A stretch of 64,000 bases of DNA from positions 930,001-994,000 of the forward strand of contig NZ_CP015449.1 of NCBI RefSeq assembly GCF_003096075.1, in the 5' to 3' direction. Of this stretch, positions 8,247-31,411 are shown one piece after another (within the stretch, counting starts at the first letter, position 1; the number at the start of each line of letters is the position of its first letter). The notes under the pieces are model-generated. The model was not told the origin of the DNA and did not search any database. It saw nothing but the letters and a program-made list of their open reading frames with translations. A program made the position numbers and the translations under genes. This DNA comes from Dietzia lutea (GTDB taxonomy: Bacteria > Actinomycetota > Actinomycetes > Mycobacteriales > Mycobacteriaceae).

Positions 8247-10124
8247 ATGCCGTCAGCGAAGACACCGCATCCGCACCGACACCGACGCCGCGCCACCGGC
8301 CTGGCGCTCGCCGCCACGATCATCGTGGGCGCAGCCCCCGCACACGCACTTCCCACCGGTTCGCTGGGCACCGGCTCGGCGGACCCGGGCGGCTCGCTCG
8401 GCGCCGCGCCGGGGAGCTCCGCCCCCGGCACCAACGACGGGCTCTACACGGGATCGGTCGAGGTCGTGGATGGTCCCGCCTCGGACCCGTCCGTCCTGAC
8501 CGGGCGCGTGTTCGACGACGCCAACCGCAATTCGGTGCACGACGATGGGGAAGTCGGCGTGCCTGATGTCCGGGTGTCCAACGGTCGCGACGTGGTGACC
8601 ACCGACGAGCAGGGACGCTACGAGCTGCCGGCCACCGACAACTTCACCGCGTTCGTGACGCAGCCCGCCGGGTGGCAGGTGCCGGTCGACGAGCAGATGT
8701 TCGCCCAGTTCAGCTACAACCACCTGCCCGAGGGCTCGCCGGAGCTGCGCTTCGGCGGTCTGGAGCCGACCGGCGATCTGCCGGCGGCGGTGAACTTCCC
8801 GCTGGCGAAGTCGGCCGCGACCGCCGATCCGAGGCAGTCCTGCCCGATCGCCTCCGACACCCAGACGTACGACATGGAGGAGGTCGGGTACGCGAGCCGC
8901 GGCGTGCCGGCCGATCTCGCGGCCCGTGACGACTACGCGGGCTGCGGCATCCTGCTCCTGGGCGACAACGTCGGCGACGACCTGAGCCTGAACCAGCCCG
9001 TCAAAGACCTCTACGCCGACTCGAACGGTCCCGTGCGTGCCATTCCCGGCAACCACGACATGGACTTCGACGCGGCCGACGCCACCCACGCCGTCGACAC
9101 TTATCGCCGCGACTTCGGCGCGCCGTACTACTCGTACGAGGTGGGCGACACCCACTTCGTGGGCCTGTTCAACATCGTCTACAACGGTCGGAAGGCCGAC
9201 GGCTCCAACGGGGGATACTCCGAGGCGATCTCCCAGGAGCAGCTCGAGTGGCTCCGCAACGACCTGGAGCACGTCGACCGCGACAAGAACATCGTGGTGG
9301 CCGCGCACGCGCCGATCGTGGACTACCGCGATGTCACGACGGACAACGCCACCGAGCTGTACGAGATCCTCGCCGACTACCCCAACGCGGTGACCGTCGG
9401 CGGCCACACCCACACCCTCGAGCACCTGCTGGCGGGTGACTCCAGGCAGGAGTGGATCGACGCGGGGATCCCCGAGCTGACCCACGACCAGCTCGTGGCC
9501 GGCGCGGTCTCCGGCTCGTGGTACTCCGGCGAGCTCAACGACAACGGCGTCCCCTACTCGTACACGTCCGATGCCGCCGAGCCCGGCGCCCTGACCATCG
9601 AGTTCGACGGACGCGAGCGCTCCGAGTACTACACGGTGCGCAACGAGTCGATCGACCGTCAGTTCCTGACGGGGATCAACAGCCCCGCGTGGCGGGAGTG
9701 GGCCGAGGCCTACCAGCAGTGGAAGGACGACGGAGGGCAGGGTGAGGCGCCGGCTCCCGTGGCGACCGACTCCGTGAGCACCGCGGACGTGAGCACCGGC
9801 GAGGCGTGGCTGGCGGCCAGCTTCTTCGGCGGATCCACGGACGCCAGCGTCCGGGTGTCGATCGACGGCGGGCAGCCCGTCGCCGCCGAGCACACCCAGC
9901 CGGCGACCGGCGAGGCCCTCAACGTGGGCTGGGAGTACACCGAGACCGTCTCGGGGACCCACAACCTCATCACCGACGCCGCACTGGGCCGGTCCAGCTC
10001 CCACCTGTGGCGGATCGCGCTGCCCGGGGATCTCGAGCCGGGCGAGCACACCGCCGAGGTCTCGGCGACGGATCGGTACGGACGTGAGCACACGACGTCG
10101 TTCGCCTTCACGGTGACGGGCTAG
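8247..10124 (+). CDS. Secreted calcineurin-like metallophosphoesterase
   Basis: Exported phosphoesterase of unknown substrate, 625 residues. Residues 1-34 form a signal peptide (HRHRRR, hydrophobic core, then AAPAHA). A small beta-sandwich at about 85-135 resembles the N-terminal domain of this family, with the SdrD-B-like turn DDANRNSVHDDGE. The catalytic domain then shows SDTQTY, GDN near residue 239, GNHD near 268, AAHAP near 352 and GGHTHT near 385. The first metal motif reads DxQ rather than DxH, which I believe is usual for this subgroup. A C-terminal beta domain (about 500-625) ends the protein. The ATG at 8247 has an upstream GAGGAGA. It stands alone between two terminated operons. 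Confidence 0.85.
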   Translation: MPSAKTPHPHRHRRRATGLALAATIIVGAAPAHALPTGSLGTGSADPGGSLGAAPGSSAPGTNDGLYTGSVEVVDGPASDPSVLTGRVFDDANRNSVHDDGEVGVPDVRVSNGRDVVTTDEQGRYELPATDNFTAFVTQPAGWQVPVDEQMFAQFSYNHLPEGSPELRFGGLEPTGDLPAAVNFPLAKSAATADPRQSCPIASDTQTYDMEEVGYASRGVPADLAARDDYAGCGILLLGDNVGDDLSLNQPVKDLYADSNGPVRAIPGNHDMDFDAADATHAVDTYRRDFGAPYYSYEVGDTHFVGLFNIVYNGRKADGSNGGYSEAISQEQLEWLRNDLEHVDRDKNIVVAAHAPIVDYRDVTTDNATELYEILADYPNAVTVGGHTHTLEHLLAGDSRQEWIDAGIPELTHDQLVAGAVSGSWYSGELNDNGVPYSYTSDAAEPGALTIEFDGRERSEYYTVRNESIDRQFLTGINSPAWREWAEAYQQWKDDGGQGEAPAPVATDSVSTADVSTGEAWLAASFFGGSTDASVRVSIDGGQPVAAEHTQPATGEALNVGWEYTETVSGTHNLITDAALGRSSSHLWRIALPGDLEPGEHTAEVSATDRYGREHTTSFAFTVTG

Positions 10125-20584: not shown

Positions 20585-21193
20585 TCAGCTCCCGGGCACG
20601 AACCCCGGGTACACCCACACGTCCAGGTATCGGGAATCGGTTCGGAACGGGGCGAACGGCATGAGTGAGACCCACGTGCCGGTGGCGAAGCCGGGGACGG
20701 TGCCGCCGGGGATGAAGACGCCGCCCGACGTGGTGGGCCACCCTCTCTCGGTGGCCAGAGCGTAAGCGCCCCGGACGCTCCCGTCGGCCGCGGACCCGGT
20801 CGATCCGGTGATCACGTCCCCGAGAACGGTGACGCGGTCGAGCCTGTGCGGCACCCCCGACGGGTCGCGCTGCCAGCAGTCCGATCCCTCGAGCACGTAG
20901 TTGGAGCACCAGATCTCCGTGTCCGTGCCGAACGGGGAGAGCACGCGCATGGGCGCGCTGTTCGGGGCCCAGAAATGCGGGTCCGACGGCGTGATGGCGT
21001 ACGGCCAGTACGAGAGCTCGGCCCACTTGTTCGGGCCCTCGGTGGCGGGCGGGAACGGGCGGTCCGCCGGCCAGGCGGGATCGTCCAGGGACTGGGCGGA
21101 AGCGGCGGGCGCGACGCCCGCCGCGAGGGCGAGTGCGGCGGCGCCGGCGGCTATGACGCGGGCGGTGGCGCGGGATGTGACGCGGGAGGACAT
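20585..21193 (-). CDS. Secreted protein of unknown function
   Basis: I do not recognise this family. The 202-residue protein has a strong signal peptide (residues 1-34, ending PAASA). The mature part is rich in Trp, Pro and Gly, carries two Cys (about 95 and 105, in WCSNYVLEGSDCW) that could form a disulfide, and repeated aromatic motifs such as SYWPYAI, HFWAPN and DVWVYPGFVPG. A compact extracellular beta-rich domain is likely. It lies 28 bp upstream of the C-S lyase gene, so the two may share a transcript. It is divergent from the nitrate operon. Confidence 0.7.
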   Translation of the reverse strand: MSSRVTSRATARVIAAGAAALALAAGVAPAASAQSLDDPAWPADRPFPPATEGPNKWAELSYWPYAITPSDPHFWAPNSAPMRVLSPFGTDTEIWCSNYVLEGSDCWQRDPSGVPHRLDRVTVLGDVITGSTGSAADGSVRGAYALATERGWPTTSGGVFIPGGTVPGFATGTWVSLMPFAPFRTDSRYLDVWVYPGFVPGS

Positions 21194-21253
21194 GCCTCAG
21201 TCCACCACGGCCGGGGCCCCCTCACAGGCGGAACGGCCGCACGTGAGTACACC

Positions 21254-21269
21254 GTGACGGGACCGTCAC
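21254..21269. promoter_or_regulatory. Palindromic activator site upstream of narK (GlnR/NnaR candidate)
   Basis: GTGACGGGACCGTCAC is a perfect 7-bp inverted repeat with a 2-bp spacer. It also reads as AC-n9-AC and as GTNAC-n6-GNNAC, the pattern known for GlnR sites in actinobacteria. The core ACGGGACCGT recurs upstream of nirB at the same distance from a -10 box. Confidence 0.65.
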
Positions 21270-21300
21270 CACGAGTAGCGCAGGGGAAACAGCCCGTTCC

Positions 21301-21306
21301 TACGGT
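21301..21306 (+). promoter_or_regulatory. Candidate -10 box of the narK operon
   Basis: TACGGT fits TANNNT and lies exactly 31 nt after the palindrome. The expected -35 position (about 21278) has no consensus, which fits an activator-dependent promoter. The start site would fall near 21313, giving a leader of about 48 nt. Confidence 0.5.
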
Positions 21307-21360
21307 TGCCCGCACGGGGCACCGGACAGGGGAGCCCACCGGCGGGGAGGGGCCACGCGC

Positions 21361-22803
21361 ATGACGCGCTCACGCACGATCGAGAACTGGGATCCGGAGG
21401 ACCGGCGACAGTGGGATTCGGGCGGTCGACGCATCGCCGTACGCAACCTCTACTGGTCGGTGTTCGCCGAGCACGTCGGGTTCTCGGTGTGGACCCTCTT
21501 CGCGGTCATGGTGCTGTTCATGCCGGAGGACGTCTACGGGCTCGACGCCCCGGACAAGTTCCTCGTCTCCGCGGTCGTCACCCTCACCGGCGCGTTCCTG
21601 CGCATCCCCTACACGCTGGCCACGGCCACGTTCGGCGGTCGCAACTGGACCATGTTCTCCGCGTTCGTCCTGCTCATCCCGGCGGGCGCGATGCTGTGGA
21701 TCATGGCCAACCCGGGCCAGCCGCTGTGGCTGTACCTGGTGGTCGGCGCGCTCGCCGGCCTGGGCGGGGCCAACTTCGCCTCGTCCATGACCAACATCAA
21801 CGCCTTCTTCCCGCAGCGGATGAAGGGCTGGGCCCTGGGCCTCAACGCGGGCGGCGGCAACCTCGGCGTGGCCACCATCCAGGTGGTGGGGCTGCTGGTG
21901 ATCGCCGCCGCGGGTAACCGGTCGCCGCACTGGGTGATCGCGGTGTACCTGGTCCTGCTGGTCGTGGCCGGGATCGGCGCTGCGCTCAAGATGGACAACC
22001 TCGGCCACCAGACGGTCGACGTGGCGAGCATGCGCGACGTGGCCACCGACCGCGACGGCTGGGTCCTGTCACTGCTCTATATCGGTACCTTCGGCTCGTT
22101 CATCGGCTTCAGCTTCGCGTTCGGGCAGATGCTCACCATGACGTTCACCGGCAACGGCGAGTCCTCGTCGGACGCCGCCCTGCACGCCGCGCAGATCACG
22201 TTCCTCGGCCCGCTGCTCGGTTCGCTGACCCGCATGCTCGGTGGGCGCCTGGCCGACCGGTTCGGTGGCGCGCGGGTGACGCTGGCGACGTTCCTGGGCA
22301 TGGCCGTCACGACGGTCGCGCTGATCGTCACCTCGAGCATGCAGTCGGCCGACGGTGGCCGGCTCTCCGGCGGCGCGCTGGTGCTGTTCTTCGCGGCCTT
22401 CCTCACGTTGTTCGCGCTCACCGGGATGGGCAACGCGTCGGTCTACAAGATGATCCCCACCGTCTACGAGGCCCGCAGTCGGGGCCTGGACCTGCCGGAG
22501 GCGGCGCGGGCGGCGTGGTCGCGCGCCCACTCGGGGGCGTTGATCGGCGTGGCCGGCGCGGTCGGGGCCTTCGGCGGCTTCCTCATCAACATGACCCTGC
22601 GCAGCTCGTACCAGTCGTCGGGATCGGCGACGGCGGCGTTCGTGGTGTTCACCGCCTTCTACGTGGTGGCAGCCGTTGTCACCCGGGCCGTGTACCTGCG
22701 GCGCCCGACCGCCGCGCCCGCGCCGGTGGCCACCGGGACGTCGCCGGTGGGGGCGGCCGGCGCCGCGCCGAGCGCGGCGGAGCCGGTCCCCGCCACGCGC
22801 TGA
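21361..22803 (+). CDS. narK: Nitrate/nitrite transporter (NarK/NasA family, MFS)
   Basis: Twelve-helix major facilitator that imports nitrate and possibly exports nitrite, 480 residues. The nitrate signature is clear: NFASSMTNINAFFPQRMKGW then GLNAGGGNLGVA near residues 139-180, with a second glycine-rich loop GMGNASVYKMIP near 360. GGGGAGGGG lies about 10 nt upstream of the ATG. It heads the narK-nasA-nasB-nnaR run. A 14-bp tandem duplication covers the stop codon. Confidence 0.93.
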   Translation: MTRSRTIENWDPEDRRQWDSGGRRIAVRNLYWSVFAEHVGFSVWTLFAVMVLFMPEDVYGLDAPDKFLVSAVVTLTGAFLRIPYTLATATFGGRNWTMFSAFVLLIPAGAMLWIMANPGQPLWLYLVVGALAGLGGANFASSMTNINAFFPQRMKGWALGLNAGGGNLGVATIQVVGLLVIAAAGNRSPHWVIAVYLVLLVVAGIGAALKMDNLGHQTVDVASMRDVATDRDGWVLSLLYIGTFGSFIGFSFAFGQMLTMTFTGNGESSSDAALHAAQITFLGPLLGSLTRMLGGRLADRFGGARVTLATFLGMAVTTVALIVTSSMQSADGGRLSGGALVLFFAAFLTLFALTGMGNASVYKMIPTVYEARSRGLDLPEAARAAWSRAHSGALIGVAGAVGAFGGFLINMTLRSSYQSSGSATAAFVVFTAFYVVAAVVTRAVYLRRPTAAPAPVATGTSPVGAAGAAPSAAEPVPATR

Positions 22804-22818
22804 CCGCCACGCGCTGAC
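22791..22818 (+). repeat. 14-bp tandem duplication across the narK stop codon
   Basis: CGCCACGCGCTGAC occurs twice in direct succession (22791-22804 and 22805-22818). The first copy holds the last codons and the stop TGA of narK. Confidence 0.85.
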
Positions 22819-22872
22819 CGGCCGCGGGGGCGGTGCGACGAGACCGACGAGGACGACGACGAGGAGATCACC

Positions 22873-25016
<2,144 letters not shown>

Positions 25017-25020
<4 letters not shown>

Positions 25021-26519
25021 GCGCGGCCGTGGTCCGGCAGGCACCCCGCCGCGTGGTGATCGTCGGCGCGGGGATGGCGGCCGCGCGCCTCGCCGAGGAA
25101 CTGCGCGCGGGCGAGCCCGACCCGGCGCGGCTGTCGGTCACCGTGCTCGGCGCCGAGGCGGAGGAGCCGTACAACCGCATCATGCTCTCCCACGCCGCCG
25201 CGGCGTCCGGTGCTGCCGGGGCCCCCGGTGCTGCCGGTGGCGCGACCCCGGTGGCGCGGCTCAAGCCCGCCGGGTGGTGGGACCGTCACGACATCACCCT
25301 GCGCACCTCGGCGCCCGTCGCGGCGCTCGACCGCGTCACGTGCGAGGTCGAGCTCGCGGGCGGCGAGCGGGTCGGCTACGACCACCTCGTCCTGGCCACC
25401 GGCGCCGCGCCCCGCATCCCGCCCGTCGACGGCATCCGCTCACCCGGCGGCGGCCTCGCGCCCGGCGTGTTCACCCTCCGGGACGCCGCGGGTCAGAGAG
25501 AGCTGACCGCTCATCTCGCGGCCCACCCGGGGCCCGTCGCGATCGTCGGTGCGGGCTTCATCGGCCTCGAGGTCGCCTGCGCACTGGCCGCGGCCGGGCA
25601 CGACGTCGTCGTCGTCCATCCCCGCGCCTGGCCCATGAACGGCTGCCTCGACGCCGGCGCCGGCGCCGTCCTGGTCCGCTCCCTCGCCGCGCTCGGCGTG
25701 CGGACGGTGACCGGCGCGCGCGCCACGAGCTGGGACGGGGCGACGTTGAGACTCGACGACGGCGAGGTGCGCTGCCGCACGGTCGTCCTCACCGCCGGGT
25801 CCGCGCCCCGGGCGGACCTCGCGCGCGACGCCGGCCTGGAGGTGGGCCACGGCGTGGTCGTCGACGACGAGCTCACCACCAGCGATCCCGCCATCAGCGC
25901 GATCGGCGACTGCGCTCAGCACCGGGGCGTCGTCAGCGGCCTGGTGGCCCCGGCGTGGGACCAGGCCGTCGTACTGGCCGCGCGACTGAGCGGCGCCGAC
26001 CCCGACGCCCGATACTCCGGCGGCACCCCGGTCACCAGGCTCAAGGCGCACGGGCTCGACGTGGTCGCGCTGGGCGAGTTCGCGGAGGACGTCTACGGCT
26101 CGGCGGGCGGCGACGACGAGGCCACCGAGGTCACCACACTCTGCGAGCCCGCGCGCGGTCGCTACGCGCGCGTCGACGTGGTGGCCGGCCGCGTGGTGGG
26201 CGCCGCGTTGATCGGCCACCCCGAGCCGGTCGGCGTGCTCACCCAGCTGTACGAGAACGCCCTGCCCGTGCCGGACGACGTGGTGTCGGTGATCCTGGGG
26301 CGCGCCGAGGCGGTGGCCGCTCAGACGCCGTCGACCATGCCCGCCGCCGCGGTGGTGTGCCGCTGCAACGGGGTCAGCAAGGGCGACCTCGTCGCGGCGT
26401 GGGCCGACGGCGCCCGCGACCGCGACGCGCTGGCCGAGAGCACCCGCGCCGGAACGGGTTGCGGCGGGTGTTCGGCGGCGGTCGAGGGGATCTGCGGGTG
26501 GCTCGCGGCGGCGGGGTAG
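25017..26519 (+). CDS. FAD/NAD(P)-dependent reductase with BFD [2Fe-2S] domain (NasB-like electron donor)
   Basis: Predicted electron-transfer partner of the nitrate reductase, 500 residues. It resembles the front half of NirB: an FAD Rossmann motif VVIVGAGMAAARLAEEL near residue 12, the EEPYNRIMLS motif, a NAD-binding motif VAIVGAGFIGLEVA near 176, the GDC flavin motif near 300, and a C-terminal BFD-like [2Fe-2S] domain with CRCNGVSKGDL and TGCGGC. It lacks the siroheme domains. The GTG start overlaps the nasA-type gene's stop (GTGA). A short Ala/Gly run near residues 60-75 is low complexity. Confidence 0.85.
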
Positions 26520-26572
26520 AGCGCAGCGGGTTAGGGCCGGGTGGAGGAATCGGACCAGTGGAGGAGACGGAG

Positions 26573-27775
26573 ATGAGCGGCGCGACCGGCGGGCGGCGAA
26601 ACACCCCGGCAACAGAGATCGGCCATGATGGGGGAGTGACCGATTCCGACGTGACCACCGCCGGCACCGATCTCCCGCTCCTGGGGCGCACGGTCGCCGT
26701 CACCGCCGCCCGGCGGGCCTCTGAGCAGCGCACCCTGCTCGAGCGCCGCGGCGCGACCGTCCTGCACGCGCCCGCGATGCACATGATCCCCATCGCCGAG
26801 GACTCCGTGGTCCGCGAGGCCACCGAGCGACTGCTCGCCACGCCCGCCGACCTCATGGTGCTCACCACCGCCGCGGGCGTGCGATGGTGGATGCAGGTGT
26901 GCGAGGAGTGGGGCCTGGCCGGGCAGCTGCTCGAGCTGATGGGTCGGATCCCGCTGTACTCGCGCGGTCCCAAGACGACCGGGGCGATCCGGGCCGCCGG
27001 CCTGCGGGAGCACGCCTCCGCGGTCAGCGAGGCCAGCCCGGAGCTCCTGGAGATGCTGCTCGAGCGGGGCGTCGCGGGGCTGACGATCGGCGTGCAGGTG
27101 CAGGGCGCGGGTTCCGGCTGGAACCCCATGGCCCCCCTGCTCGACGGCCTGCGGGACGCGGGCGCCGACGTGATCGAGGTGCCCGTCTACCGGTGGGAGC
27201 TCCCGGAGGATCTCGCCGCGCTCGACGAGCTCGTGACCACGATCGCCCGTCACGGCGTTGACGGCGTGACGTTCACCGCCGCGCCGGCGGTCGTGGCCGT
27301 GCTCTCGCGTGCGGACGCGCTCGGGCTGCTCGACGACCTGCTCGACGCGCTGCGCGGCCCCGTCGCCGCCCTGTGCGTGGGCCCGGTGACCGCGGCCCCG
27401 CTGGCAGACCTGGACGTGCCGTTCACCTGCCCCGACCGGATGCGCCTGGGTTCGCTCATGCGGCACACCACCGACGAGCTCGCCGCCCGGACGGCGCCGA
27501 TCGACGTGGCCGGGCACCAGCTGACCGTGTGCGCGGCGGCGGTGCTGGTCGACGGCCGACCGGTCGAGGTCACGCCGGCCCAGCTCGCGCTGTTGCGGGT
27601 GCTCGCGCGGCGCCCGGGGGCGTGCGTGAGCAGGGACGAGCTGCTCGCGGCGCTGCCCGGCGACGGCACCGACCCGCACGCGGTGGAGACCGCGATGGGC
27701 CGCCTCCGCCGGGCGCTCGGCGTGCCGGACCTCGTGACGACCGTCGTCAAGCGCGGCTATCGGCTCACCATCTGA
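26573..27775 (+). CDS. nnaR: HemD-like / winged-helix regulator of nitrate assimilation
   Basis: Predicted transcription factor, 400 residues, that fuses a uroporphyrinogen-III synthase (HemD) fold (about 40-290) to an OmpR/PhoB-type winged helix (about 300-400, with EVTPAQLALLRVLARRPGACV and VVKRGYRLTI). The family includes NnaR of Streptomyces and mycobacteria, which controls nitrate/nitrite assimilation with GlnR; Rv0260c is the tuberculosis relative as I recall. The ATG at 26573 has GGAGACGG upstream; GTG 26636 is an alternative. It is the last gene of the nitrate operon. Whether the HemD half senses a tetrapyrrole is unknown. Confidence 0.82.
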   Translation: MSGATGGRRNTPATEIGHDGGVTDSDVTTAGTDLPLLGRTVAVTAARRASEQRTLLERRGATVLHAPAMHMIPIAEDSVVREATERLLATPADLMVLTTAAGVRWWMQVCEEWGLAGQLLELMGRIPLYSRGPKTTGAIRAAGLREHASAVSEASPELLEMLLERGVAGLTIGVQVQGAGSGWNPMAPLLDGLRDAGADVIEVPVYRWELPEDLAALDELVTTIARHGVDGVTFTAAPAVVAVLSRADALGLLDDLLDALRGPVAALCVGPVTAAPLADLDVPFTCPDRMRLGSLMRHTTDELAARTAPIDVAGHQLTVCAAAVLVDGRPVEVTPAQLALLRVLARRPGACVSRDELLAALPGDGTDPHAVETAMGRLRRALGVPDLVTTVVKRGYRLTI

Positions 27776-27800
27776 GCGGTCGCGGCGGCCTGCGACGGGC

Positions 27801-27876
27801 GCGGGCGGCTCGCGGCGGGGCGGCGGCCTTCGGCGGGTGCGGGCGGCTCGCGGCGGGGCGGCGACCTTCGGCGGGC
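27801..27876 (+). repeat. Two tandem 38-bp GC-rich units
   Basis: Units at 27801-27838 and 27839-27876 differ at two positions. Each begins GCGGGCGGCTCGCGGCGGGG. They open the 467-bp gap between nnaR and nirD and code for nothing recognisable. Confidence 0.8.
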
Positions 27877-27880
27877 GATC

Positions 27881-28009
27881 TCGCAGCGCGACTGCCGCGA
27901 GGTGCGCTGGCTCTTCGGCTCGCGCTGGCTGAAGGGTCCATTCGGCCAGCGCACCCGGGCTGTGTTCGAGCAGTCCGGCAGCGTAGGTCGAAGAGGCAGC
28001 GCGATCGGG
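27881..28009 (+). repeat. 129-bp direct repeat, copy 1
   Basis: The copy matches 28106-28234 at an offset of 225 bp with only a few mismatches. It contains a 12-bp stem, GCGCTGGCTGAA (27922-27933) with TTCGGCCAGCGC (27941-27952), around the loop GGGTCCA. Its last 17 bases form the left arm of a terminator hairpin that copy 2 lacks. Confidence 0.85.
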
Positions 28010-28026
28010 CGGGGTCGCGCTGCCTC
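27993..28026 (+). terminator. Terminator in the nnaR-nirD gap
   Basis: GAGGCAGCGCGA (27993-28004) pairs perfectly with TCGCGCTGCCTC (28015-28026), followed by TTTG. It lies about 215 nt after nnaR and could also act on the convergent nirD transcript. Confidence 0.75.
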
Positions 28027-28105
28027 TTTGTCAGCGGCCGGGCGTTCCCGCAGCGCATCCGCTCGGCTGCGGGCCTCCTGCGGGCCGGTGTGGCCTCCGG
28101 CGAGC

Positions 28106-28234
28106 TCGCAGCGCGAGTCCCGCGAGGTGCGCTGGCTCTTCGGCTCGCGCTGGCTGAAGGGTCCATTCGGCCAGCGCACCCGGGCTATGTTCGAGCAGTC
28201 CGGCAGCGTAGGTCGAAGAGGCAGCGCGACCGGG
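28106..28234 (+). repeat. 129-bp direct repeat, copy 2
   Basis: Second copy of the unit at 27881, ending 9 bp before the nirD stop codon. The 12-bp hairpin is conserved at 28147-28177. The terminator's right arm is missing, so the half-arm GAGGCAGCGCGA at its end stays unpaired. Confidence 0.85.
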
Positions 28235-28242
28235 AGTTCGCC

Positions 28243-28644
28243 CTACGCAGCGGTGGCGCGGGCGTGGCGGACCGCGGGCTCGGTCGCCACGTAGACCGTG
28301 CCGTCCTCGGCGACCCGGGTGGGGAACACCGAGATCCCGCGGGACGGGTCGTCGAGGCCGCGACCGTCCTCGAGCGCGTACGCCTGCTTGCCGATGGGCG
28401 AGATCACGGCGGGGACGCCAGCACGGTCGCCCACGAGCCCGCGGCTCATCACGGCCGCCCGGGCGACGGGATCGATGTTGCAGACGGCGTGCACCTCGCC
28501 GTCGTCGAGCTTGTACACCGCCACCTGGCGCCCGTCGGGCAGCAGGGCGGCGACCCCGCGCCCGGCGATGAGGCGGTCGACAGCGCAGACGGCGATCTCG
28601 GGGGCGGCGCCGGCGCGGGCGGGGCGGGACAGGGTTGCGGTCAT
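28243..28644 (-). CDS. nirD: Nitrite reductase [NAD(P)H], small subunit (Rieske-like)
   Basis: Small partner of NirB in the six-electron reduction of nitrite to ammonium, 133 residues. It has the Rieske-type beta fold of NirD (IAVCAVDRL, AVYKLDDGEVHAVCNIDP, VISPIGKQAYALEDGRGLDD) but, as expected for NirD, not the CxH...CxxH cluster ligands. The ATG has GAGGAG seven bases upstream. It follows nirB by 78 bp on the same strand. Its stop lies next to the second 129-bp repeat. Confidence 0.92.
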   Translation of the reverse strand: MTATLSRPARAGAAPEIAVCAVDRLIAGRGVAALLPDGRQVAVYKLDDGEVHAVCNIDPVARAAVMSRGLVGDRAGVPAVISPIGKQAYALEDGRGLDDPSRGISVFPTRVAEDGTVYVATEPAVRHARATAA

Positions 28645-28722
28645 GGCGAACTCCTCGGGTGTGGGCGGGTGGATGTCGGGTCGAAGGCGGGGACGGGGGC
28701 CCGGCGCGTCGGGCGCGTGTGC

Positions 28723-31326
28723 TCAGCTGCGGACGGGCATGGCGGGGGAGCCGAGCAGCACCGGCACCTTGCGGCCGTCGCGCTGCTCGAACTGCACGGT
28801 GGGGTCCGGTGCCTCGGGGGCGTTGACGAACGAGACGAACCGGGCGAGCTTGTCGGGATCGTCGAGCACGGCCGCCCACTCGTCCACGTAGCCGGCGACG
28901 TGCGCCTCCATGCGTTCCTCGAGCTCGGCGGCCAGGCCGAGCGAGTCGTCGCACACGACCTCCCGTAGGTGGTCGAGCCCGCCCTCGAGCGCCTCGAGCC
29001 ACGGCGCCATGCGCTGCAACCGCTCGGCCGTCCGGACGTAGAACATCACGGTGCGGTCGATGTAGCGGATGAGCTGGTCGTCGGTGAGGTCGCCGGCCAG
29101 CAGCTGGGCGTGCCGCGGGGTCGCGCCGCCGTTGCCGCCCACGTACAGGTTCCAGCCATTTTCGGTGGCGATCACGCCGACGTCCTTGCCCCGGGCCTCC
29201 GCGCACTCGCGCGCACACCCGGACACGGCCATCTTGATCTTGTGCGGCGCCCGCAGTCCGCGGTAGCGGGTCTCCAGCAGCACAGCCATCGCGACCGAAT
29301 CCTGCTGCCCGTACCGGCACCAGGAGGTGCCCACGCAGCTCTTGACCGTGCGCAGCGACTTGCCGTACGCGTGCCCGGACTCCATGCCCGCGTCCACCAG
29401 ACGCCGCCAGATGGCGGGGAGCTCCTCGACGCGGGCGCCGAACATGTCGATGCGCTGGCCGCCGGTGACCTTGACGTACAGGTCGTGGGCGCGGGCGATC
29501 TCGCCGATCACGATGAGCTGCTCGGCCGTCACCTCGCCGCCGGGCATCCGCGGCACCACCGAGTAGGTGCCGTTCTTCTGGATGTTGGCCAGGAAGTGGT
29601 CGTTGGTGTCCTGCAGCGCCGCCTGCTCACCGTCGAGGACGTGGTCCGAGCTGGTCGAGGCGAGAATCGACGCGACCGTCGGCTTGCAGATGTCGCAGCC
29701 GATCCCGCGCCCGAAGCGCCCGATCAGGCCGGAGAACGTGCGGATGCCGGTGACGGTGACGATTTCGTACAGCTCCGAGCGGGACTGGTCGAAGTGCTCG
29801 CACAGCGCGGTGGACTGCTCGACGCCCTCGGCCTCGAGGACCTGACGCATGAGCGGAAGGCAGGAGCCGCACGAGGTGCCGGCCCGGGTGCACGCCTTGA
29901 GGGCGGGCACGTCGCACGCGCCGCCGCAGATGGCCTCGCGCAGGTCGCCCTTGGAGACGGCGTTGCACGAGCAGATCTGCGCGTCGTCGGGCAGCGCGTC
30001 CACGCCGACGCCGGAGTCGGCCGCCGCGCCCGGGGTGATGAGGGACAGGGGGTTGGACGACGGCAAGGTGCGGCCCAGCAGGGGCTTGAGCAGCTGGTAG
30101 GGGCCCGCGTCGCCGACGAACACGCCGCCGAGCAGGGTCAGGGCGTCGTCGCTGAGGACGAGCTTGTTGTAGGTGCGGGCGACCGGGTCGTCCACCACCA
30201 CCTCGAGGCAGTCGGGCGTACGCCCGTGGGCGTCGCCGAAGCTGGCCACGTCGACCCCCATGAGCTTGAGCTTGGTGGCGAGGTCGGCCCCGGTGAACTC
30301 GGTGCCGGCGTCGCCGGTGATCTGGCCGGCCGCGACCTCGGCGGAGGTGTATCCGGGCCCGACCAGGCCGTAGCAGGTGCCCTCGATGGCCGCGCACTCG
30401 CCGATCGCGTAGACGTGCGGGTCCGAGGTGCGGCAGGCCCGGTCGGTCAGCACGCCGCCCCGCTCGGCCACGGCGATCCCCGCCGCGCGGGCGAGCTCGT
30501 CACGGGGCCGGACTCCGACGGAGAACACGACGAGGGCCGCGTCGACGACATCCGTCTCGCCGTCGTCGGAAGTCAGGGCGACCCGGAGCCCGGCGTCACC
30601 GGACGCCGACGCGTCGCCACCCCCCGCGGCGGCCGCGCCGTCACCCCCCGCGGCGTCCGCCTCGCCGGCGGCGCTCTCCTCGATGACCGTGTCGGTCACG
30701 CTGAGGTGCACGTCGATGCCGCGGTCGCGGATGAGGTCGCACAGCAGGGCGCCGCCGCGGCCGTCGACCTGAACGGGCATGAGCCGGTCGTTGCGCTCGA
30801 CGACGTGCGGGACGAGGCCGAGCAGGCTCAGCGCGTTGGCGGCCTCGATGCCCAGCAGGCCGCCGCCGACCACCACTCCGTGCGCGCCAGCACCGGCCCG
30901 CTCGGCGGCCGCGCGGATCGCGTCGAGGTCGTCGAGCGTGCGGTAGACGTGGCACCCGGGCAGGTCGTGGCCCGGGACGGGCGGGACGAACGCGCGCGAG
31001 CCGGTCGCCAGGACCAGCGTGTCGTAGTCGACGTACTCGCCGGAGTCGAGTTCCACGCGCCGGGCGGCGGTGTCGATCGCGGTGACGAGCCGGCCGGAAC
31101 GCACGGTGACGCGGGGGTCACCGGAGTGCCGCGCGTCGTCGAGGTGCAGGGCGTCGCGCTCCCACGCGCCGACGTAGGCGGACAGTCCCACACGGTCGTA
31201 GGCGGGATCGGGTTCCTCGCCGATCACCGTGACGGCCACGTCGGCGTCGGCGTACCGCGAGCCGAGGGTGGAGACGAAGCGGTGGGAGACCATCCCGTGC
31301 CCGACGACGACGATGTGCTCAGTCAT
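28723..31326 (-). CDS. nirB: Nitrite reductase [NAD(P)H], large subunit
   Basis: Siroheme-containing assimilatory nitrite reductase, 867 residues. Domains in order are FAD binding (VVVGHGMVSHRF near residue 5), NAD binding (GVVVGGGLLGIEAANAL near 150), the BFD [2Fe-2S] domain (CSCNAVSKGDL ... CTRAGTSCGSC, about 447-485), a ferredoxin-like half domain, then the siroheme/[4Fe-4S] domain with KSCVGTSWCRYG and SGCARECAEARGKDVG, giving the four cluster Cys. A low-complexity Ala/Gly/Asp insertion of about 35 residues (near 212-245, DNA around 30590-30690) is unusual. GGAGG lies upstream of the ATG. The promoter carries the palindrome shared with narK. Confidence 0.95.
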   Translation of the reverse strand: MTEHIVVVGHGMVSHRFVSTLGSRYADADVAVTVIGEEPDPAYDRVGLSAYVGAWERDALHLDDARHSGDPRVTVRSGRLVTAIDTAARRVELDSGEYVDYDTLVLATGSRAFVPPVPGHDLPGCHVYRTLDDLDAIRAAAERAGAGAHGVVVGGGLLGIEAANALSLLGLVPHVVERNDRLMPVQVDGRGGALLCDLIRDRGIDVHLSVTDTVIEESAAGEADAAGGDGAAAAGGGDASASGDAGLRVALTSDDGETDVVDAALVVFSVGVRPRDELARAAGIAVAERGGVLTDRACRTSDPHVYAIGECAAIEGTCYGLVGPGYTSAEVAAGQITGDAGTEFTGADLATKLKLMGVDVASFGDAHGRTPDCLEVVVDDPVARTYNKLVLSDDALTLLGGVFVGDAGPYQLLKPLLGRTLPSSNPLSLITPGAAADSGVGVDALPDDAQICSCNAVSKGDLREAICGGACDVPALKACTRAGTSCGSCLPLMRQVLEAEGVEQSTALCEHFDQSRSELYEIVTVTGIRTFSGLIGRFGRGIGCDICKPTVASILASTSSDHVLDGEQAALQDTNDHFLANIQKNGTYSVVPRMPGGEVTAEQLIVIGEIARAHDLYVKVTGGQRIDMFGARVEELPAIWRRLVDAGMESGHAYGKSLRTVKSCVGTSWCRYGQQDSVAMAVLLETRYRGLRAPHKIKMAVSGCARECAEARGKDVGVIATENGWNLYVGGNGGATPRHAQLLAGDLTDDQLIRYIDRTVMFYVRTAERLQRMAPWLEALEGGLDHLREVVCDDSLGLAAELEERMEAHVAGYVDEWAAVLDDPDKLARFVSFVNAPEAPDPTVQFEQRDGRKVPVLLGSPAMPVRS

Positions 31327-31358
31327 TCCTGGACCTCCTTGGCGAGCCTGTGCGGAAC

Positions 31359-31364
31359 AGGTTA
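31359..31364 (-). promoter_or_regulatory. Candidate -10 box of nirBD
   Basis: On the minus strand this reads TAACCT (TANNNT). It is preceded by TTCC, as is the narK box, and lies exactly 31 nt from the upstream palindrome. Confidence 0.5.
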
Positions 31365-31395
31365 GGAAGGAGGTGTTGCGATGCTGTGGCGTCGG

Positions 31396-31411
31396 ATCAC
31401 GGTCCCGTGAC
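31396..31411. promoter_or_regulatory. Palindromic activator site upstream of nirB (GlnR/NnaR candidate)
   Basis: On the minus strand it reads GTCACGGGACCGTGAT, with TCACGG and CCGTGA arms. It shares the 10-base core ACGGGACCGT with the site upstream of narK. Confidence 0.65.

Follow-up and report, generated by a model that had tools for sequence, protein, structure and literature searches.

Adjoining NnaR-type and GlnR-type boxes in a common layout at the narK and nirB promoters of Dietzia lutea and other Mycobacteriales

Co-activation of nitrate assimilation genes by NnaR and GlnR has already been published for Streptomyces and mycobacteria. As excerpted, the work on M. smegmatis (Antczak 2018, PMC6277429) reports that NnaR and, modestly, GlnR bind the nirB and narK promoters in gel shifts, that the genetics point to GlnR, and that the nirB and narK transcripts are leaderless mRNAs; the association between the two regulators was weak, with none in a two-hybrid test. 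The same excerpts give the NnaR motif as CTCAC[AC]-N16-[TG]GTGAG, a half-site gap of N18, and describe an MtrA motif nearly identical to the GlnR motif as well as binding of MtrA to a mycobacterial nirB promoter. For S. coelicolor and Mtb promoters, the excerpted motif is CTCAC[AC][Cg]-N13 to N16-GTGAG, with a gap of N15-N18 (PMC11162112). GlnR boxes, in the part of PMC10704036 drawn on here, take forms that include gTnAc-n6-GaAAc and GTnAC-n6-GTnAC; the A at the fourth position is called irreplaceable, other box arrangements are described too, and four GlnR DNA-binding domains lie head-to-tail in the activation complex. That source also cites Amin 2012 for NnaR and GlnR binding cooperatively to the S. 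coelicolor nirB promoter.

We examined a window of 64,000 nucleotides, the whole stretch of DNA that was analysed, in which the nitrate genes of D. lutea form a cluster (Table 1). The sequence-only reading of this DNA had spoken of two divergent halves of the pathway, which is wrong: narK (+) and nirB (-) are convergent, and their promoters lie about 10 kb apart. The best named match of nirB was from Dietzia massiliensis, with 96% identity over the best segment. A 202-aa ORF (20585-21193, - strand) with no NCBIfam match is divergent from narK and separated from it by the region that contains the narK NnaR box. The convergent nnaR and nirD flank a 136-nt direct repeat (27874-28009 and 28099-28234, 96% identical), which looks like a dispersed repeat family because 12 more partial matches (71-92%) were found elsewhere in the genome.

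Table 1. Genes and promoter elements of the nitrate cluster, in window coordinates
Feature	Coordinates	Strand	Remark
narK, nitrate/nitrite MFS transporter	21361..22803	+	TIGR00886 250.7 bits, below cut-off 311.7; MFS_1
assimilatory nitrate reductase-like molybdoenzyme (nasA/nasC)	22873..25020	+	best match NasC, 684 bits, below cut-off 1100
NasB-like flavoprotein (Pyr_redox_2, BFD-like domain)	25050..26519	+	first base is the Pfam match start, not the start codon
nnaR, HemD domain and OmpR-type DNA-binding domain	26636..27775	+	start codon provisional
nirD, Rieske-like small subunit	28243..28644	-	
nirB, nitrite reductase large subunit	28723..31326	-	TIGR02374 1033.6 bits, above cut-off
narK NnaR-type box CTCAC-N17-GTGAG	21221..21247	+	about -92 to -66; fits published motif
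narK distal GlnR-type box a1-N6-b1, GTGAC-GGGACC-GTCAC	21254..21269	+	GTGACGGGACCGTCAC; palindrome of the sequence-only reading
narK proximal GlnR-type box a2-N6-b2, GTAGC-GCAGGG-GAAAC	21275..21290	+	covers -35 position
narK -10 box TACGGT	21301..21306	+	offset kept in relatives
nirB -10 box TAACCT	31359..31364	-	from sequence and offset in relatives
nirB proximal GlnR-type box a2-N6-b2, GCCAC-AGCATC-GCAAC	31375..31390	-	
nirB distal GlnR-type box a1-N6-b1, GTCAC-GGGACC-GTGAT	31396..31411	-	GTCACGGGACCGTGAT, read 31411-31396; palindrome of the sequence-only reading
nirB NnaR-type box CTCAC-N17-GTGAA	31418..31444	-	

Both promoters have the layout CTCAC-N17-GTGA[GA] / N6 / a1-N6-b1 / N5 / a2-N6-b2 / N10 / TANNNT, and the spacing of all parts is the same. 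The narK promoter reads CTCAC-N17-GTGAG / TACACC / GTGAC-GGGACC-GTCAC / CACGA / GTAGC-GCAGGG-GAAAC / AGCCCGTTCC / TACGGT and the nirB promoter CTCAC-N17-GTGAA / ATAAGC / GTCAC-GGGACC-GTGAT / CCGAC / GCCAC-AGCATC-GCAAC / ACCTCCTTCC / TAACCT. The NnaR motif CTCAC...GTGAG is exact at narK (N17), and nirB has GTGAA instead of GTGAG. A GlnR-type box adjoins the NnaR-type box in either case, with the inferred start downstream of the GlnR-type box; transcription would begin near 21313 for narK and near 31352 for nirB. An A at the fourth base is present in the half-sites a1, b1 and b2 of both promoters and in a2 of nirB; a2 of narK (GTAGC) is off-consensus, with G, not A, at this base. The GlnR spacing a-b-n6-a-b was not matched, as 5 nt lie between the boxes at both promoters.

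The coordinates given earlier for a palindrome and a -10 box at each promoter were all correct, and the 31 nt said to separate them at both were confirmed by direct count. This gap is made up of 5 + 16 + 10 nt and holds the second GlnR-type box over the -35 position. PhoB promoters have a similar 10-nt step between box and -10. The claim that neither promoter has a recognisable -35 also held, as a simple sigma-70 scan gave no -35/-10 pair in either promoter region. TTCC does precede the -10 box at both promoters as described, but it is not a kept feature, since 5 of the 15 narK promoters that carry the layout in Dietzia have it.

In the genome (3.9 Mb), the pattern CTCAC-N14..19-GTGA-N5..8-GTNAC-N6-GT had two matches, both at these promoters, and the backward control had none. 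The NnaR box CTCAC-N15..19-GTGAG alone was unspecific, with 11 genome places versus 8 in the backward control, a count that leaves out the nirB box (GTGAA). Conservation within the genus was followed in 23 Dietzia genomes, 16 of them with a close narK, and at 15 nirB promoters. The layout was found at 15 of the 16 narK and 14 of the 15 nirB promoters; the nirB promoter of G020 has it with three mismatches in the NnaR box, and G022 has it at neither gene. Mean information per position, counted over 15 narK and 13 nirB promoters (G020 nirB and G022 left out), was for narK and nirB, respectively, 2.00 and 1.81 in the second NnaR half-site, 1.72 and 2.00 in a1, 1.59 and 1.88 in b1, 1.64 and 1.88 in a2, 1.93 and 1.92 in b2, and 0.82 and 1.40 in the inner six bases. 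These values lean high because the sequences are kin, and it is the contrast between half-sites and inner bases that counts.

A loose pattern, consisting of the NnaR box and the first GlnR box, gave 46 matches in the 23 Dietzia genomes and 3 in the backward control; by coordinates, 26 of the 46 are at narK or nirB and 20 elsewhere. The same loose pattern matched in 186 of 298 Mycobacteriales genomes among the matches listed, many of which look like chance, and this search was left unused. At seven loci with NnaR-type boxes elsewhere (L168, L173, L183, L194, L232, L233 and L236), no nitrate gene was seen by eye.

For the comparison across genera, the best 80 of 573 named nirB loci were searched (1.64 Mb, both strands); all cross-genus counts below refer to these 80. 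They come mostly from Nocardia and Mycobacterium in the wide sense and also from Rhodococcus, Gordonia, Hoyosella, Jongsikchunia and three Dietzia, the last of which overlap the genus set (G009, G018, G020) and are not independent. With a1, b1 and a2 left free, the layout had 81 matches in 65 of the best 80 loci and none in the reversed control; the next gene was narK after 46 matches, nirB after 32 and nnaR after 3. Of the 15 loci without a match, 11 show a site with a single NnaR-box mismatch ahead of nirB (reversed control 0), so that 76 of the 80 carry the layout if one mismatch is allowed; in the other four (L104, L126, L133, L150) no site was found near nirB at up to two mismatches. When the distances were left free, GTGAR to b2 measured 38 nt in 70 cases and 39 in 4, and b2 to -10 measured 10 nt in 70 of 71 and 1 nt in one. 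The gap between the NnaR half-sites was 18 in 62, 17 in 8 and 19 in 1, with 10 others scattered. The reversed controls of these searches were empty. The fixed geometry that the sequence-only reading had seen in the two promoters was thus upheld, and it extends to other genera.

The -10 box was approached with the NnaR motif alone as anchor, which matched within 400 nt upstream of nirB in 32 of the best 80 loci. In 29 of those 32, TANNNT has the same offset, and in the other 3 it is shifted one base further, the average per offset being 0.41. In 24 of 32 nirB-side matches, 6-7 nt separate the -10 from the first ATG or GTG, a candidate start codon. This distance is that of leaderless messages and therefore supports the -10, with transcription probably starting about 7 nt behind it. 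Dietzia start codons are further downstream of the -10.

Among distinct sites with the reference spacing in the best 80 loci, the fourth-position A was kept in a1 in 26/26 nirB-side and 35/36 narK-side sites, and in b1 in 26/26 and 36/36. In a2 it was present in 24 of 26 nirB-side versus 4 of 41 narK-side sites, and 28 of these 41 read GCAGC; the narK-side totals of 41 and 36 stem from identifying the next gene by tblastn and by a short motif, respectively. In Dietzia, the a2 position is A in none of 15 narK and all of 14 nirB promoters. As a strictly gene-specific mark, a2 was weakened by four Nocardia loci, among 12 with both sites, in which the assignment is reversed; a2 therefore marks promoter sub-forms rather than genes. 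Three mycobacteria (L111, L136, L138) carry the full layout some 120 nt upstream of nnaR, which suggests autoregulation of nnaR in these species. In five mycobacteria (L094, L102, L104, L108, L109) a conserved weaker match, with two NnaR-box mismatches and one extra base, precedes a gene some 10 kb downstream of where nirB starts.

The genome encodes both NnaR, with its HemD and DNA-binding domains, inside the cluster and GlnR elsewhere (G000:C1:894303, DNA-binding part); the best solved relatives of the latter include chains named GlnR. Both genes were observed directly, as were the layout, its spacing, its conservation and its two occurrences in the genome. Seven OmpR-type regulators are present besides NnaR, GlnR included, and the two amt genes are preceded by GTAAC-N6-GAAAC and GTAAC-N6-GCAAC. 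Full-length NnaR was found in 11 of the 23 Dietzia genomes, and all 11 carry the layout at both genes (G020 with mismatches). Four genomes with no full-length NnaR match (G001, G005, G017, G018) carry the layout at narK, nirB or both, in assemblies that are 78-88% complete; four others (G002, G007, G014, G016) are without full-length NnaR and without a narK match. G022 is a distant genome (99% complete; NarK 60% identical) in which we found only a HemD-like match (39%, residues 10-287) with no DNA-binding part. Its narK promoter keeps most of the putative GlnR array, with b1, a2, b2 and -10 at the same distances and a poor a1, and the NnaR box is absent; a search at its nirB gave no array. The absence of both full-length NnaR and its box is suggestive, one distant genome being no proof, and makes G022 a possible natural experiment. 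In G006 (C154:39086-39913) and G001 (C188:3241-4083), nirB has a divergent neighbour whose product matches NnaR in the HemD part only (73% and 69% identity, respectively); this protein is perhaps an NnaR relative that lacks the DNA-binding domain.

Taken on sequence and by analogy, the narK and nirB promoters are very probably composite, activator-dependent promoters of nitrate assimilation, with GlnR on a1-b2 and NnaR upstream. It is from published work on relatives that we infer which protein occupies which site, as well as activation, cooperation, signals and transcription starts. When nitrogen is short, GlnR would bind the four half-sites a1-b1-a2-b2. GlnR may replace the -35 contact, since the -35 position falls within the proximal box and 10 nt separate this box from the -10. 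NnaR would bind CTCAC-N17-GTGA[GA] just upstream and aid the binding or the action of GlnR; with both regulators active, narK with the genes behind it and nirBD would be switched on together. Against this proposal stand the narK a2 without a fourth-position A, a GlnR consensus that allows many sequences and resembles the MtrA motif, the low specificity of the NnaR box by itself, the four of the best 80 loci with no site near nirB, and the layout in G001, G005, G017 and G018, whose incomplete assemblies gave no full-length NnaR. The earlier suggestion of one control system for the two promoters, with GlnR, NnaR or the pair in charge, finds good support, and the sequence favours the pair, which appear to use separate sites.

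The sequence-only reading had placed the signal in the palindromic core itself, and a single activator that recognises the palindrome around ACGGGACCGT would account for the sharing of this 10-mer by both promoters. ACGGGACCGT is over-represented in the window (3 copies versus 0.38 expected; none of 100 shuffles reached 3), the third copy (9025-9034) being inside the ORF 8247-10124. Moreover, the symmetry TGA-N8-TCA is present in 20/26 nirB-side and 18/36 narK-side sites, counted as distinct sites with the reference spacing in the best 80 of 573 loci. Counted in the same way, however, the inner GGGACC occurs in 1/26 and 0/36, and conserved half-sites reach beyond the palindrome on both sides. 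The genome holds 31 copies of ACGGGACCGT, 29 of them outside the two promoters, and 4 of the backward pattern; the 10-mer is therefore not diagnostic and not a signal by itself. These observations make a single activator of this kind very improbable. A degenerate 16-mer (up to 3 mismatches) was not commoner in the window than expected by chance (11 versus 13.2); the 31 copies, this chance level and the variable core ruled out the 10-mer or 16-mer as a genome-wide marker. The palindromic symmetry is partly conserved in the sequences compared and GGGACC is not; since the half-sites are kept while the inner six bases vary, the core common to both promoters is largely accidental. One weak terminator-like match (31397-31410, +) could make the nirB palindrome a hairpin ending + strand transcription, but it has five pairs only and no counterpart at narK, and conservation tracks the promoter layout; we regard this possibility as negligible.

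Two further proposals concern the proteins. The a1-b1 palindrome could be an extended NnaR site, GTGAG and GTGAC being 11 nt apart, with GlnR on a2-b2 only. The direct repeat GTGA[GA]-N6-GTGA-like is found in narK and many relatives, NnaR has an OmpR-type DNA-binding domain, and G022, with no full-length NnaR, has a poor a1 while b1, a2 and b2 persist. Yet a1 and b1 fit the form GTnAC-n6-GTnAC that the excerpts of PMC10704036 give for GlnR, the Dietzia nirB a1 is GTCAC rather than GTGA, and the off-consensus a2 would leave GlnR a weak site at narK; an extended NnaR site is thus unlikely. That the a/b half-sites serve a different member of the OmpR family, MtrA or PhoP for instance, instead of or besides GlnR is suggested by the resemblance of the MtrA and GlnR motifs and the MtrA binding at nirB in the excerpted PMC6277429, and by the number of OmpR-type regulators in this genome. 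We consider it quite unlikely, given that the M. smegmatis genetics in the same excerpts point to GlnR and that all 81 layout matches in the best 80 of 573 loci adjoin narK, nirB or nnaR. Such competitors may act in addition to GlnR.

Within the preferred reading of GlnR on a1-b2 and NnaR upstream, a stricter form is conceivable, to which we lend limited credence: a rigid NnaR-GlnR array of six half-sites, in which the inner five follow one another at intervals of roughly one helical turn (11, 11, 10, 11 nt) and which would work as a strict two-input gate. It is likewise possible, but doubtful, that the proximal DNA-binding domain of NnaR extends the GlnR row by one step and that the array replaces the -35. 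We are equally tentative in proposing that such an array is almost unchanged across the Mycobacteriales, with a2 sub-forms that are mostly GCGAC at nirB and mostly GCAGC at narK. The weak NnaR-GlnR association in the excerpted PMC6277429 argues against strong direct contact in this array. With all 81 matches in the best 80 of 573 loci beside narK, nirB or nnaR, a loosely described pair of motifs becomes an exact blueprint, which makes the help of NnaR to GlnR directly testable by spacing mutants. Our additions are a precise geometry that stays constant over many genera, a further GlnR-type box, the sub-forms of a2 and the case of G022; we make no claim that the exact geometry is absent from the literature, surveyed here by titles and abstracts.

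The closest comparison is M. smegmatis, where nirB (msmeg_0427) and narK (msmeg_0433) are the same genes as in Dietzia. In the excerpts of PMC6277429, a palindromic CTCAC...GTGAG likewise lies beside a GlnR motif with similar spacing, and the start is downstream of the GlnR motif, as proposed for Dietzia. The two NnaR half-sites are 17 nt apart in Dietzia and 18 in the motif published there. Start codons are more distant from the -10 in Dietzia than in M. smegmatis, so Dietzia messages would have leaders. A second GlnR box and an exact distance to the -10, both given here for Dietzia, do not figure in the excerpted account. In S. coelicolor, narK, nirB, nirA and nasA are under NnaR/GlnR (Amin 2012, as cited in the excerpted PMC10704036), which is the same co-activator idea, but in D. 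lutea, unlike S. coelicolor, the nitrate reductase gene follows narK. The GlnR a-b-a-b promoters of amtB and glnA (Tiffert 2008 and Shi 2023, from the same excerpts) have tandem 5+6+5 boxes as in Dietzia, which differs in having N5 rather than n6 between them, an NnaR box in front and a nearly palindromic distal box. The nas operon promoter of Amycolatopsis mediterranei (Wang 2013, again as excerpted in PMC10704036), for which those excerpts mention no NnaR box, unlike Dietzia, also serves nitrate assimilation and has b1 and b2 16 nt apart, as in Dietzia; a2 is dispensable there, and it is a2 that is off-consensus at Dietzia narK.
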